The notes under the pieces: model-generated
Databases searched by the model: none
The model's input: the letters and a program-made list of their open reading frames with translations, nothing else
What the model was told of the DNA's origin: nothing
Translations under genes and position numbers: made by a program
Source: a virus
Direction: 5' to 3' (one strand)
IMG/VR virus record: IMGVR_UViG_3300050821_003061
Coordinates: 1 to 62,352 of that record
Length of the DNA stretch: 62,352 nt
Part shown: piece by piece, positions 25,469 to 32,449 of the stretch
Layout of the letters: each line of letters opens with the position of its first letter
How positions within the stretch are numbered: position 1 is the stretch's first letter

Positions 25469-28400
25469 ATGACGGACGCAGCAGCAGCGGACCCGTGGGC
25501 CGGCCTTGCTAATTGGGACCATCCACTCCCTCCCGGCTTTGAATATGTCGATGACAAGAACTATCCCCCGCCTCCGCGCCAAACCTCGGCGCGCAGCGTC
25601 CTAGGCGCCGGAGCATCCGGCATCAACGCCGGCCTTGCGGGAACGCTTGGGCTCCCCGTCGATGTCGCCAACACGGCGCTGCGCGGGGTTGGCCTGCAAA
25701 CCAACCCAGCCCCGATCATGGGCTCGGCATGGCTGCGCGGAATCGAGCGCAGCGTCGGGATCAATCCCGATCTCGCGTCCGACGCGACGACGGCCGAGAA
25801 GATCGCCCACGCTGGCGGTTATGGCGCGGCGGCCGCAACCGTGCCAGCCGCGGGCGTTGGGCTTGCCGGCGAGGCTGGTGCACTCACCGGACCGGCCTTA
25901 GAGACGGCGCAGGCGATTACCGGTGCACCGACCGCCACGACAGCAGGATTGGGCGCCGTAGCCGGCGCGGCCGGCGGGGCCGCCGCCGAAGCGGCGCCGA
26001 AGGGATTTGAGACAGCGGCTTCACTCGCTGCTCAATTGGCGGCCGGACACGGCTTTGGGAAAGGGGTATCGAGCCTTACCTCGACACCCCCCCCAAGCGA
26101 TATCGAGCAGTTCCTGAACGAGGCTGACGTTGCCTCGGCGCGCGCGGCCGGCGCAAAGACGCGGGTAGAGATCGATGAATTTATCCGAAACAAAGAGGCT
26201 GGTACGACGGCCGCCCTCCCGGCTCCTGCAAGCATGGTGGGAGAGGGTGCCCCCGCGAATGCGCCTCATGTCGCAGAGCCTCCACAAGCCGAAGCGCAAG
26301 CTCCTCCCAACATTGTGGCCCCCGAGAATGCGCCTCCTGTCGCAGAGCAAGCCGGAGCCGCTCAGGCCGGAACTCGCCAAGCGCCCGTCAAGGTACAAGC
26401 CCCCGACGAAATCGAGCCTGCTCGCAATGTGGCGGACACTGCACCTTCGCCTGCTCAATCCGAGGCCGGTAACTATCAGAAGGGCCACGCGAATTTCGAC
26501 GGGTTGCCCGTCACGATCGAAAATCCAAAGGGTTCGATCAGATCAGGCACCGATCCGAATGGCACGCCATGGAGTTCCGTCCTTCCGGCGGACTACGGCT
26601 ACGTAAAAGGCTCGGTTGGCAAGGACGGCGATCATGTCGATATTTTCCTCGGCGACAAGGGGCCGAACGGAAAAGCCTTCGTCATCGACCAGAACGACCC
26701 AGCGACCGGTAAGTTCGACGAGCACAAGATCGTCGCTGGCGTCGATAACGTAGCAGAAGCGGCGCAAATCTACCATGGCGCCTTCCAGGATGGCTCCGCG
26801 CCGCAGCGCATCGGCGGAATTACCGAAGTTCCGATTGATCAGCTCAAAACCTGGCTCGCGAGCGGGCCGGTAAAGAAGCCGTTCGCCAAACCGGCTCCGC
26901 TACCGGAGGGGTTCGTTCCTTACACTGGTTTTGAAGATGGGACCGACCGGCCGGTCACTGCAACAAAACCCGCGCAAAATATTCCTGAAAATATTACCGC
27001 GGGCCTGACGGCGGAACAGGAAGCCGTCGTCACATCGCACCTAAAAGCATCGGGACTCACGCAGGCCGATATCGGCCAATTGTGGCCGCTTGGCCTCCGT
27101 CCGATCGATATCGATCCGCAGGCCGCTGCCGCTGCCAAGCAGCATGAGGCGGCGGGCGCGCCGCCGGACACAGCGTACGAGAGAGCCGTCATCGAGGCGG
27201 CGCTCGCCGATCCGAAAGTTCAAGGTATTAACGATGGCGAACAGCTCCCCGCTGCCCCCGAACCAATACAAAGTTCTGTTGCGACGGCTCCAGAGCCTCG
27301 CCCGCCTGTCGCGGGGGCCGGACCAGTTACGCTACCAGCGCTGGGCAAAAGCCCTGCTCCTGGCGCACCGGAAACGGCACCCACAAGCCTAACAGACGCC
27401 GCCGGGCGCCAGCATGTTCTCGATACATCGCAGCCATCGGACGCGATCGCGAAGCATCTCCTGGAAAAAGGTTCTCTTTCCAGAGAAGACGCCGCAAAGC
27501 TCACCGGCCACAATCTCAGCGATCCGAACCAGCTAAAGGCTTTCGAGGAAAATGTCGAGCTTGGCGTCGTCAAGGCCGCGCGGCACATCATTAGGGCAAT
27601 AGCCCAACCGGAAGTCTTCGACCGGCTCGTCAAACTCTACGGCGATCAGCCCAAGCTCGGCACACGAACCTCGACCTCGATGCGCGATCAGGCGTACAGC
27701 ACGCCCATACCGCTGGCCTATGCCGCTTCGAGGCTTTCCGGTGTCGCGCCGGACAAAACTGTTTACGAGCCGTCCGCGGGCAACGGTGCGCTTTTGATCG
27801 AGGCGCACGCCGTCGATACCGTCGCCAATGAATTGAATCCTGGACGGCTAAATGCATTGAAAAGCCAAGGCTTCCTTGCTATGAACAAGGATGCCTCGAA
27901 ACCAACTACAGCCGAAGCGGCGGTCAAGCAAAACGATGGTCCGTTCGATATTGTATTGCTCAATCCTCCTTTTGGAGTGCGTCACGGCGAAGGTGGTGCA
28001 GGGGACCGTTTTGACCTATCGCGTTTCCAGCCTGGCTATGAGACTGGCGAGATCGATCATGCTATCGCGCTGAACTCGCTTGCCGCGATGAAGCCGGACG
28101 GGCGCGCCGTCCTGATCCTCGGCGGCCCATCGCCACTTGCGAAATCGGACGAGGCCCGCACCAAGGCTTACGGAGCGAAGGCCAAGCGCGAGTTTTACAA
28201 GACCCTTTACGATAAGTTCAACGTCGATGGACATTTCACGGTCTCCGGCGACCTCTACGAAAAGCAGGGCGCCGGCTGGCCGGTTGATGTAATTACGATT
28301 TCGGGAGCCGGAAAGTCCGCGCTCCTCTACCCTATGATGACCGCGCCCCCCATGTTGAATACGTGGGCCGCAGTGAAGGAGAAGGCTCTTGCCGAGCAAC

Positions 28401-31400
28401 CAAGCCATCCGCAGCCAGTTAGCGAGCCACGCGGCGAAGCTCATGCACCGAGTCCCACAGTCGGAGCGCCCGGACATGATATTGAGGATCAACCGCTCAA
28501 TGGCGGACTCGGGAATGCTGGACCCCCTAATCGACCCGAAGGCGAACCCGGAGCACTTCGGCCAACAGGCGTTCCTCAACAACATGAGCATCGAGAACCA
28601 TCTGCCGCACCTGAACCTACCGAACATCCTGTGCGCGGAGAACCCGGAGGACATGGCCAACCGCGTCCTACCGAACGACGGCCACCTGGAGTAGAGAACC
28701 GCATTTCGGCTGTCCTTGGCGATCTTGCAAACTATGATGGCAATCGCGTGTACCTATCGACGGTGCGCGCCGCGCTTTCTGACTTGCCACGCGCCGAGCA
28801 AGACGCTGCGATCAAGAGCTATGCGGCCAGCCACGACGTTGGGCTTTATCCAAACGACAATAGGATAACAATTACGCAAGATCAGCGCGACAACGCCGTT
28901 CACATCGGCAATGAGCCTCGACATTTCTTTTTTGTTGGGAACCCACCACCGCCACGCCATGCCGCGCCAGCACGCCAACCGCGCGCGGCTCCGGCGCCCC
29001 CTTCGCAGCCAGAAGCGCCGAAGGAAGCCGAAACCGAAAATCAGGTCGCATACTCGCCAAAGTCCACGGCAGGCACCAAACTTGGCACCCTCGCCCCCCG
29101 CAATATGCGTGACGCTTCTGACGCCGCTCTCGCCAGCGTGGAAAGCCGGCATGGCCCAATCGCCAAATACGTCTCAAGCGAGCTTGGCTACAAAGCCGCC
29201 GATCTTGGCAAGCATTACTCGGCCGAGCAGGTTGACGCTCTCGGCCTCGCAATCGACAACATCGAGCGCGGCGGATCGTTGATCCTCGGCGATCAGACCG
29301 GCATCGGCAAGGGCCGCGTCCTCGCTGGGCTCATTCGGTATGGCCTGCGCAAGCGTATGACGCCGATCTTCGTTACCGAGAAGGCAAACCTCTATGCCGC
29401 CATGTTCGACGACATGACGGACATCGGTATGACGGACATGCTCGGCCGCGAGCCCCGCATTCTACCCACCGACAGCAACTTGAAGCTCCCGATCGGCAGC
29501 CAAGGAACAATTCTGAAAACGCCGGACGGTCCAGAGCAGGAGAAGCAACTTCGCGATGTCGCCGCCAATGGCAAGTTGCCCGATCACGACATGATCATGA
29601 CCACCTACTCGCAAATGCAGACGGTCAAGGGCCAAGACACGGCGCGCCGTGGATTTCTGCGGTTGATGGCACCGAATGCCATCATCCTTTTCGACGAGAG
29701 CCACAATGCCGGCGGCGCGGCAGTCGAGAAGCGCATTGCTAAGGGTAAACCACCGCCGCCGCCAGACCGCGCCGAATTCGCCCGCGAGCTCGTTCAGAAG
29801 GCCAAGGCCGTAGTCTATTCCTCGGCGACCTACGCCAAGCGGCCGGACAGCATGCGGCTCTATTCGAAGACCGACATGCGCTACGCCGTCGCCGACATGA
29901 AGGACCTCGGCGAAGCGATCAAAAAGGGCGGCGTGCCGATGCAGCAAGTCGTTGCATCCGCGCTTGCCGAAAGCGGCCAGTATCTTCGCCGCGAACGATC
30001 CTTCGACGGTATCAAGTACGATATGGAAGTGACGCCGATCGATCGCGCGCTCTACAGCGGGTTCTCCAAGGCGCTGCGGGCGATCAACGATTTCTCGAAG
30101 AAAGCCGGGAAATCCGTCAAAGACATCGACAAGGAAGTCAAGGCCGAGGCGGCAATCGCCGGCCAGGACGCCTCGGTTGGGGCGGCTGGCGCGGAAAGCA
30201 CGAATTTTACCTCCCTCATGCACAACGTTGTCTCGCAGTTCCTGCTCGCCTCGAAGGCGGAGCGCGCGGGCCAGCTTGCGGTCGAGGCGATCAACAGAGG
30301 GGAGAGGCCGGTCATCGCCGTCGCGAACACGCTGGAAAGCTTCGTGTCTGACTATATGGAGCAGACTGGCGCGAAGACCGGCGATCTCATCAGGGCGAGC
30401 TTCGGCGATCTTCTCTCACGCTACCTCGATCGCTCGCGTGTCGTGACGATCAAGAAGCCGTTCGGCGCCGTGACCGACAAGCACACGATGACCGACGAGG
30501 AACTAGGACCCGAAGGGCTGGCGGCCTACCATGCCGCGCAAGCCGTCATCAACGGTCTGGATTTCGGCAAACTCCCGATTTCCCCGATCGACAAAATCCG
30601 CCAGGTGATTTCGCAAGCCGGCCATGCGGTTTCCGAGATCACCGGGCGCAACAATGTGCTCGATTACGGCAAAGGCAACATTCCGCAGATCGGCACGCGA
30701 TCCGGGAAGGAAAGGTCCGTCGCTGGGCGTACGCAGACGGTAAAGGATTTCAATTCAGGAAAGTTGAAAGCGCTAATTCTCAATGAAAGCGGTGCGACCG
30801 GCATATCGCTCCACGACAGCGAGGCGTTCCCGGAAAGCGGACGCGGCCAGCGGGCCATGATCATCGCCCAGGCGCATCCGAACATTGACACGCACATGCA
30901 AATGCTCGGGCGCGTCAACCGCACCGGCCAGGTATCCAAACCGCGCTATGCCCAGCTCGGCGCCGATGTCGCGGCGGAAAAGCGGCCGATGGCCGTGCTC
31001 GCCAAGAAACTCGCCTCCCTCAACGCCAATACGACGGCGAGCGCGAAGAGTGGACTTTCCGGCAAAGGAGCGGTCGATTTCCTGAACCGCTACGGCGATG
31101 AAGTGGTAACGCAGGTCATGCTGGATGACATGCGGGCTCATATCGACATGGGCGAGCCGCTCAAGGAGTCGCTCAGTCCAACAGAACCGATGGAGGACGC
31201 CGCGCGCCGGGCGACCGGCCGCATCGCGTTCCTGGAACCGGATATCCAGGACCGTATCATGGACGCGATCGAGAGCCAGTATAAGGCCAAGATCGACGAT
31301 CTCGACGAGCGCGGAGAAAACGCGCTTGAGGCGAAGCACCTTGACTTACAGGCCAAATACGAGGGTGGCGCGGACATCTCTCAAAAGACCGGCGATAGCC

Positions 31401-32449
31401 CCTTCCAAGACGCCGTGCATGTCGGCACCTACGACGTAAAGAGCGACCGCAAGCCGCCGAAATTCGACGACGTGATGAAATCGGCCTATGCGATGCTCGG
31501 GCGCGAGATCGTTCCGAAATATGCGCCGCTCGAAGCGCTGCAAACGGCTGGCGGGAAGACAGTCTCAGCGATGATGACCCGCGCCGATCAGGCGTTCGCC
31601 GAGTACAAGAGCGCGATGCGAGCGATTACCAAAGACCCGGATATCGCGGCAGAGCAAGCCAATCGATTGGCGGACGGCAGAGAGGCAATGCGGGCCAAGC
31701 TCGCCGTCGTCTATCCTGGCTCAATTTTGCATCTCGACGAGAACGATCAAGTCCCGCTGCCCTATGCGATTGTGATGGTGGTGAAACACGAGGGAAAGGC
31801 GCTCAATCCTTATGCGCCGTCGAGTTGGCAGGCCACGATGGCATTCCCCGGTTACGGCATGAGAACGGTTCCGTTTTCGCAGTTGGGAACGAGGGAAACC
31901 GCCGAACCGGATGCGATGCAGGTAGCGCCAGCATCTATGAAACCGGATGAACTCGCCAAGATGTTCGACAGCTTCAAGAGCGAGCTTCGCGAAAAGCGGG
32001 TGATCGCCACGGGCAATCTACTTACGGCCTTCGATCTCCTACGCCATGCTGGCCAGATCGCGCATTTCACGATGGACGACGGCACGGTTCGCCAGGGCAT
32101 CATTCTCCCGCGCAAGCAGACCTCATTCAAGGACGTTGCCGGCGGGGCCGTCAAGAAACTTCGAGAGCCGAGCGACATCATCAAATTTCTGGAGAAACCC
32201 GGGGGAACCGCGGTTTCCGCGGATGGAGCGATCACGATAAGCCGCCTATATGGCGGCTTTCTTATTTCCGTCGTTGGCGCGCGATCCATAGGCGGAAAAT
32301 ACTTCCTCGATCCCGGCGTTCTTGAGGCGCTAGGCCGTGACGAATTCATCAAACGCGGCAGCGAAATGCGTGCGTCTGCGCCCCCCGACAGAGCCACGGC
32401 TGTCTTCGAGGCCCTGATCAAAGCCGGCGCGAATTTCCAGCAGAAGTAA
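25469..32449 (+). CDS. Giant polyvalent protein: InPase-like, N6-methylase and SBNO-type helicase
   Basis: A 2326-residue protein. The leader DPWAGLANWD (8-17) matches the ejection protein at 21157. An InPase-like domain spans about 338-470 (IENPKGSIRSG...GKDGDHVDIFLG...FDEHKIV). An N6-adenine methylase follows with EPSAGNGA (767-774) and NPPF (832-835). A Strawberry-notch-like SF2 helicase has GDQTGIGKGR (1274-1283), DESH (1409-1412) and MLGRVNRTGQ (about 1812-1821). This is the architecture of phage polyvalent proteins related to P1 DarB, injected with DNA to protect it from host restriction. The Pro/Gly linker at about 974-1075 overlaps another gene. Confidence 0.85.
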   Translation: MTDAAAADPWAGLANWDHPLPPGFEYVDDKNYPPPPRQTSARSVLGAGASGINAGLAGTLGLPVDVANTALRGVGLQTNPAPIMGSAWLRGIERSVGINPDLASDATTAEKIAHAGGYGAAAATVPAAGVGLAGEAGALTGPALETAQAITGAPTATTAGLGAVAGAAGGAAAEAAPKGFETAASLAAQLAAGHGFGKGVSSLTSTPPPSDIEQFLNEADVASARAAGAKTRVEIDEFIRNKEAGTTAALPAPASMVGEGAPANAPHVAEPPQAEAQAPPNIVAPENAPPVAEQAGAAQAGTRQAPVKVQAPDEIEPARNVADTAPSPAQSEAGNYQKGHANFDGLPVTIENPKGSIRSGTDPNGTPWSSVLPADYGYVKGSVGKDGDHVDIFLGDKGPNGKAFVIDQNDPATGKFDEHKIVAGVDNVAEAAQIYHGAFQDGSAPQRIGGITEVPIDQLKTWLASGPVKKPFAKPAPLPEGFVPYTGFEDGTDRPVTATKPAQNIPENITAGLTAEQEAVVTSHLKASGLTQADIGQLWPLGLRPIDIDPQAAAAAKQHEAAGAPPDTAYERAVIEAALADPKVQGINDGEQLPAAPEPIQSSVATAPEPRPPVAGAGPVTLPALGKSPAPGAPETAPTSLTDAAGRQHVLDTSQPSDAIAKHLLEKGSLSREDAAKLTGHNLSDPNQLKAFEENVELGVVKAARHIIRAIAQPEVFDRLVKLYGDQPKLGTRTSTSMRDQAYSTPIPLAYAASRLSGVAPDKTVYEPSAGNGALLIEAHAVDTVANELNPGRLNALKSQGFLAMNKDASKPTTAEAAVKQNDGPFDIVLLNPPFGVRHGEGGAGDRFDLSRFQPGYETGEIDHAIALNSLAAMKPDGRAVLILGGPSPLAKSDEARTKAYGAKAKREFYKTLYDKFNVDGHFTVSGDLYEKQGAGWPVDVITISGAGKSALLYPMMTAPPMLNTWAAVKEKALAEQPSHPQPVSEPRGEAHAPSPTVGAPGHDIEDQPLNGGLGNAGPPNRPEGEPGALRPTGVPQQHEHREPSAAPEPTEHPVRGEPGGHGQPRPTERRPPGVENRISAVLGDLANYDGNRVYLSTVRAALSDLPRAEQDAAIKSYAASHDVGLYPNDNRITITQDQRDNAVHIGNEPRHFFFVGNPPPPRHAAPARQPRAAPAPPSQPEAPKEAETENQVAYSPKSTAGTKLGTLAPRNMRDASDAALASVESRHGPIAKYVSSELGYKAADLGKHYSAEQVDALGLAIDNIERGGSLILGDQTGIGKGRVLAGLIRYGLRKRMTPIFVTEKANLYAAMFDDMTDIGMTDMLGREPRILPTDSNLKLPIGSQGTILKTPDGPEQEKQLRDVAANGKLPDHDMIMTTYSQMQTVKGQDTARRGFLRLMAPNAIILFDESHNAGGAAVEKRIAKGKPPPPPDRAEFARELVQKAKAVVYSSATYAKRPDSMRLYSKTDMRYAVADMKDLGEAIKKGGVPMQQVVASALAESGQYLRRERSFDGIKYDMEVTPIDRALYSGFSKALRAINDFSKKAGKSVKDIDKEVKAEAAIAGQDASVGAAGAESTNFTSLMHNVVSQFLLASKAERAGQLAVEAINRGERPVIAVANTLESFVSDYMEQTGAKTGDLIRASFGDLLSRYLDRSRVVTIKKPFGAVTDKHTMTDEELGPEGLAAYHAAQAVINGLDFGKLPISPIDKIRQVISQAGHAVSEITGRNNVLDYGKGNIPQIGTRSGKERSVAGRTQTVKDFNSGKLKALILNESGATGISLHDSEAFPESGRGQRAMIIAQAHPNIDTHMQMLGRVNRTGQVSKPRYAQLGADVAAEKRPMAVLAKKLASLNANTTASAKSGLSGKGAVDFLNRYGDEVVTQVMLDDMRAHIDMGEPLKESLSPTEPMEDAARRATGRIAFLEPDIQDRIMDAIESQYKAKIDDLDERGENALEAKHLDLQAKYEGGADISQKTGDSPFQDAVHVGTYDVKSDRKPPKFDDVMKSAYAMLGREIVPKYAPLEALQTAGGKTVSAMMTRADQAFAEYKSAMRAITKDPDIAAEQANRLADGREAMRAKLAVVYPGSILHLDENDQVPLPYAIVMVVKHEGKALNPYAPSSWQATMAFPGYGMRTVPFSQLGTRETAEPDAMQVAPASMKPDELAKMFDSFKSELREKRVIATGNLLTAFDLLRHAGQIAHFTMDDGTVRQGIILPRKQTSFKDVAGGAVKKLREPSDIIKFLEKPGGTAVSADGAITISRLYGGFLISVVGARSIGGKYFLDPGVLEALGRDEFIKRGSEMRASAPPDRATAVFEALIKAGANFQQK
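28389..28694 (+). CDS. Probable nested gene inside the polyvalent gene, other frame
   Basis: A 101-residue ORF in the +1 frame with a TTG start. AAGGAG (28376-28381) lies seven bases before it. Of its 101 codons, about 89 end in G or C, like genuine genes here, whereas the polyvalent frame over the same bases has mostly A/T third positions and reads as a Pro/Gly/His-rich linker. The predicted protein has ordinary composition (LASHAAKLMHRVPQSERPDM...NLPNILCAENPEDMA). An overprinted gene is the simplest reading; two compensating frameshifts in the big gene are the alternative. No function is known. Confidence 0.6.
   Translation: MPSNQAIRSQLASHAAKLMHRVPQSERPDMILRINRSMADSGMLDPLIDPKANPEHFGQQAFLNNMSIENHLPHLNLPNILCAENPEDMANRVLPNDGHLE

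Follow-up and report, generated by a model that had tools for sequence, protein, structure and literature searches.

Evidence for a conserved gene nested in the linker of DarB-like methyltransferase-helicase genes of phages and mobile elements

Does the +1 open reading frame (ORF) lying between the methyltransferase and helicase parts of a giant phage polyvalent gene encode a protein of its own, or is it a shadow of the linker that it overlaps? The question is raised by a 62,352-base virus record, here called the window when the whole stretch is meant, which carries portal, terminase large subunit and tail genes. Its polyvalent gene is of the DarB-like methylase-helicase type, with an adenine methyltransferase followed by an SF2/Strawberry-notch helicase in a single ORF (Table 1). 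When the host protein was scored against Pfam, PF01170 lay above the cut-off and PF02384 below it, and both PF13872 and PF13871 scored strongly. A sequence-only reading had proposed that a real gene is embedded at this point. The idea is supported and appears essentially right, on a larger scale than was proposed: the ORF is very probably a genuine protein-coding gene, belonging to a new family that occupies one site, and is most likely expressed by internal initiation.

Table 1. Coordinates in the window of the polyvalent gene and of the features within it.
Feature	Position	Strand	Remarks
Host gene	25469..32449	+	Polyvalent protein of 2,326 aa whose domains are inorganic pyrophosphatase-like, N6-methyltransferase-like and a helicase of Strawberry-notch type
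Methyltransferase region, just 5' of the nested gene	27566..28345	+	PF01170 at residues 749-780, weak PF02384
SF2 helicase / Strawberry-notch region, 3' of the nested gene	29084..31141	+	PF13872, PF13871
Nested gene, 101 aa, TTG start, TAG stop	28389..28694	+	+1 frame of the polyvalent gene; conserved, under purifying selection
Shine-Dalgarno AAGGAG, 7 nt 5' of the TTG, overlapping main-frame codons	28376..28381	+	Conserved in relatives
+1-frame TGA stop, 4 codons 5' of the start, closing the nested frame upstream	28374..28376	+	From the sequence
Second nested +1 ORF candidate, 52 aa, ATG, just 5' of the methyltransferase	27234..27392	+	Flipped periodicity relative to L001, in one pair only

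Across the ORF, GC content by codon position is 0.61/0.35/0.88 in the nested frame and 0.88/0.61/0.35 in the main frame, the GC3 of the whole main gene being 0.68. On recheck, the figures of the sequence-only reading (88% GC3, AAGGAG seven bases before TTG, and a proper stop) were all correct, and its statement that the main frame becomes a linker exactly here agrees with the shift in codon-position GC. The alternative frame is open and has a start, a Shine-Dalgarno (SD) sequence and a stop of its own. Two of the original arguments carry less weight than was claimed for them. When the main protein was held fixed, its codons redrawn synonymously and the longest +1 ORF in the linker scored, the mean was 151 aa against 105 aa for the real stretch (p = 0.85). 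The open length of the +1 frame is thus unremarkable, because Pro/Gly/Glu-rich linkers rarely yield +1 stops; chance suffices to explain it, and it was dropped as evidence of coding. The TTG start also lends less support, since it is rare in the family, most relatives using the stronger ATG.

The closest comparison is with a relative, L001, which has the same 101-residue product at 86% amino acid identity; its frame, SD and TTG start are likewise the same, and no indels occur across the ORF. Changes between the two at main codon positions 1/2/3 number 6/4/36 upstream of the ORF and 20/13/8 inside it (chi-square p = 3e-7), so that inside the ORF they fall mostly at the third position of the nested frame. 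Across the ORF the nested-frame translations agree at 88/102 positions, counting the stop, and the main-frame translations at 72/101. Directly 3' of the nested stop, the main-frame sequences of the window (28700-28970) and L001 (6310-6597) are unrelated and represent different inserted segments, after which similarity returns before the helicase.

The same shift is seen in 35 independent pairs. Counted by main codon position 1/2/3, changes number 742/562/1925 on the methyltransferase side, 1094/682/609 within the nested ORF and 710/426/2107 on the helicase side. Only within the ORF, and in neither flank, do third-position changes shift to the nested frame. When each change was classed by its consequence in each of the two frames and 26 pairs were pooled, the overlap gave a dN/dS of 0.32 (95% interval 0.26-0.38) for the nested frame, indicating purifying selection, and 1.10 (0.90-1.26) for the main frame, so the residues of the big protein there are close to neutral. 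The proposal that the big protein merely reads through this stretch is borne out by these values. The main frame is nevertheless kept open, though its amino acids are neutral: if the nested residues are kept and their codons left to vary, each ORF would be expected to contain 6.1 main-frame stops, and the 113 loci have none. Linker length tracks the length of the nested ORF (r = 0.84). Codon usage in the nested frame is closer to that of flanking genes than is codon usage in the overlapping main frame at 78/113 loci (p 2e-10); for the window the figures are 0.21, against 0.22 for the flanks and -0.19 for the main frame. In effect, the linker may be regarded as an out-of-frame reading of the nested gene.

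Other alternative-frame ORFs of at least 90 aa in the polyvalent gene behave differently. Four have the ordinary main-frame substitution pattern, among them one of 143 aa in another linker, and a fifth (27090-27392) includes the second nested candidate of Table 1. An antisense ORF of 214 aa (28016-28660) was rejected, its part 5' of the nested ORF showing the ordinary main-frame pattern.

The methyltransferase and helicase parts served as queries for gathering relatives from viral contigs and bacterial genomes; a direct scan of genome contigs with a two-sequence alignment of the nested protein had given no match, and the helicase route succeeded. Once negative controls, broken copies and duplicates were removed, the set, window and L001 included, comprised 113 distinct loci with an ORF at the same site, always in the +1 frame and always with the main frame open. 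The start codons chosen are ATG (104/113), TTG (5/113) and GTG (4/113). An SD of some kind precedes 106/113 starts, compared with 13% of random positions, and one of at least 5 nt precedes 78/113, compared with a background of 1%; no clear SD is present at 7 loci. The ORF is carried by phages and by mobile elements from cyanobacteria, alphaproteobacteria and Desulfovibrio; among the organisms that the records name are numerous filamentous cyanobacteria as well as Desulfovibrio and Paracoccus. Plasmids with the ORF come from Chroococcidiopsis, Gloeobacter, Picosynechococcus (pAQ6 of strain PCC 7002) and Leptolyngbya, and from Thalassospira with a less clear start. On pAQ6 the nested ORF has 168 codons' worth of product (168 aa) and lies at NC_010480.1 complement(100507..101013), within SYNPCC7002_RS15125. 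Bacteroides phage BS-TP4 probably has it as well, its product being too diverged for a BLAST link. The ORF is missing from control homologues, namely Bacteroidota genes and those on Yersinia, Pseudomonas, Vogesella and Persicobacter plasmids.

A search of 14 genomes for stand-alone copies found none: the extra copies examined, including cyanobacterial ones, also sit nested between methyltransferase and helicase, and one further copy is broken, with a shifted frame. In the second copy of Leptolyngbya sp. SIOISBB (L135), the nested frame continues into the downstream helicase frame; this shifted copy may be either a pseudogene or an assembly error. In another cyanobacterial copy (L238, 7-2600), about 2 kb of other sequence splits the methyltransferase part, perhaps as an insertion.

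One copy is already annotated. On Gloeobacter morelensis plasmid pGMOR1 (L208, 2279-2728) the nested ORF is listed as a CDS, "hypothetical protein" WP_230844304.1, and the helicase CDS begins where it ends, the main frame nonetheless being open through the region. The upstream methyltransferase part is missing from the gene list, with the caution that the PLSDB gene table is incomplete, and it looks as though the nested ORF led the gene finder to divide the giant gene. With the same caution, the Gloeobacter CDS is independent annotation support for the nested gene. In nearly all annotated records examined the family has been left unannotated, because standard annotation excludes long overlaps.

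The nested proteins occur in a short form of about 95-105 aa and long forms of about 130-170 aa. Single linkage by BLASTP joined 99/113 of them, the window's included, and left 14 unjoined. Against a null in which main-frame proteins were kept and codons redrawn synonymously, the window's product is significantly similar to those of L052, L005 and L050 (z 6.4, 9.1 and 7.7); taken singly, the distant L063, L068 and L111 are no more similar to it than the null. Short and long forms are connected by profiles only, pairwise similarity alone not exceeding the null. The short-form profile matches the long-form profile at E 1e-9 without shared members, and the profile comparisons A9-A5 and A7-A5 were excluded as evidence on account of shared members. 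AlphaFold, run on an alignment without one row taken from a database record, confidently predicts a globular fold for the long form, with beta strands followed by helices (pLDDT 92.7, pTM 0.87), and predicts six helices for the window protein (pLDDT 80.1, pTM 0.65).

This is a new family, without a match in Pfam, PHROGs, NCBIfam, PADLOC, PDB or BFVD. The search of the 101-residue product (P0001) against phage proteins, which the sequence-only reading had proposed, returned only the query's own record from Pfam, PHROGs, NCBIfam, PADLOC and GenBank phages, and searches with its relatives against phages and plasmids found nothing further. The best Foldseek values, E 1.5 (PDB) and 0.6 (BFVD), are not significant, and the alignments show no obvious conserved catalytic residues. 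An Rz1-type spanin lipoprotein was considered and rejected: there is no N-terminal signal peptide with a lipobox Cys, the N terminus is polar, and the sole Cys of P0001 is at position 82. In searches of the open-licence literature, no title dealt with such a nested gene in a polyvalent or DarB context.

Several other accounts of the ORF have to be weighed. It is very improbable that it is a by-product of a Pro/Gly-rich linker whose GC skew mimics coding; the openness of the +1 frame is indeed expected from main-frame composition, but this reading is refuted by the substitution data, both the periodicity, which moves to the +1 frame, and the contrast in dN/dS. It is equally at odds with the conserved SD and ATG, the confident predicted fold, and the ordinary pattern of the other alternative-frame ORFs in the gene. 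A main frame that switches to linker exactly at the ORF might also arise if two compensating frameshifts, real or due to sequencing errors, had moved part of the main protein. The probability of this is close to nil: the frame relation is the same in all relatives, which refutes it, and none has the amino acid sequence in its main frame, the observation that would have spoken against an embedded gene; moreover, the nested frame has its own stop and is closed upstream. Programmed ribosomal frameshifting, which would yield a fusion of methyltransferase and nested domain terminated by the nested stop, is improbable too. SD-like sequences stimulate shifting at other frameshift sites, and a +1 frame with the SD-like AAGGAG nearby could be reached in this way. 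Against this, the start is nearly always ATG, and a +1 stop lies within five codons 5' of it at 84/113 loci, directly abutting it at 36, so that the shift would be needed at the start itself and a fusion with the methyltransferase is unlikely; in the window, the stop upstream likewise leaves no open +1 frame for such a fusion.

Compatible with a gene made by internal initiation, though distinct from it, is the possibility that the nested frame is the younger of the two, having arisen by de novo overprinting of an existing linker, and was not read through following a later fusion of neighbours. We regard this as nearly evenly balanced, leaning slightly towards doubt. Where homologues lack the nested ORF, the fused linker is in some cases shorter, and the lack of stand-alone copies in the 14 genomes also fits. 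On the other hand, the nested codon usage is nearer to that of flanking genes, the main-frame residues are neutral, linker length follows ORF length, and the product has a predicted globular fold. We suggest, tentatively and with some reservation, that giant polyvalent proteins might be built in part by out-of-frame reading through neighbours, that the nested gene might be older than the linker, and that more than one nested gene might be kept per giant gene.

With regard to this last point, there may be a second, smaller nested ORF in the polyvalent gene (Table 1, last row). Its counterpart in L001 (4627-4782) has a near-identical product, and changes between the two by its own codon positions are 4/3/10, among them a series of synonymous exchanges of Leu and Arg codons. 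Another nested +1 ORF of about 67-73 aa is found 5' of the methyltransferase in L032 (3868-4086), L033 (3391-3609), L109 (4062-4280) and L083 (4356-4556); these four are mutually homologous, and an SD-like AAGGAG lies upstream in L032 and L083. Short helical-looking +1 ORFs are also present in L049, L052, L129, L139 and L162.

As for expression of the nested gene, ribosomes would initiate internally at the nested SD and TTG or ATG on the shared mRNA, giving a separate small protein, and ribosomes making the giant protein would read the same DNA in the other frame as a low-complexity, neutrally evolving linker between methyltransferase and helicase. Internal initiation at the SD would be the simplest route. 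The product would more likely be a binding or regulatory protein than an enzyme. Because every examined copy is nested in that methyltransferase-helicase gene, its genomic position prompts the speculation, the best we have on its role though less likely than not to be correct in this form, that a small helical protein assists or regulates the DarB-like one inside the cell that makes it, for example as a subunit, a chaperone or an inhibitor.

The DNA methylase-helicase dyad of DarB-type polyvalent proteins was described by Iyer et al. 2017 (PMC5512222). There, too, a methyltransferase is followed by a SWI2/SNF2-type helicase, in some cases with Strawberry-notch modules; what differs here is that the interval between the two hides a separate gene. 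A word search of the text of that survey found no occurrence of "overlap", "frameshift" or "linker". The nested gene would add an undescribed small protein to an antirestriction-type methylase-helicase module, and further hidden genes may be worth looking for in the low-complexity linkers of polyvalent proteins.

Same-strand overlapping genes nested one in another are known from phages, as in lambda Rz/Rz1 and phiX174 E in D. As in those cases, the overlap described here involves a full second gene on the same strand, in another frame and with its own start and SD. In contrast to them, the outer frame is neutral in the overlap and forms the linker of a giant multidomain protein, an inverted situation that leaves the passive part to the big frame, and the family spans phages and mobile elements of several phyla without a family match in the libraries searched. 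Overprinted genes have also been reported for E. coli O157:H7, where two reports (PMC4683798, PMC7103648) describe a recent orphan gene and an antisense gene. The likeness lies in an overlooked gene within an annotated one, whereas the nested gene of the methyltransferase-helicase linker is on the same strand and at one conserved site across distant phages.
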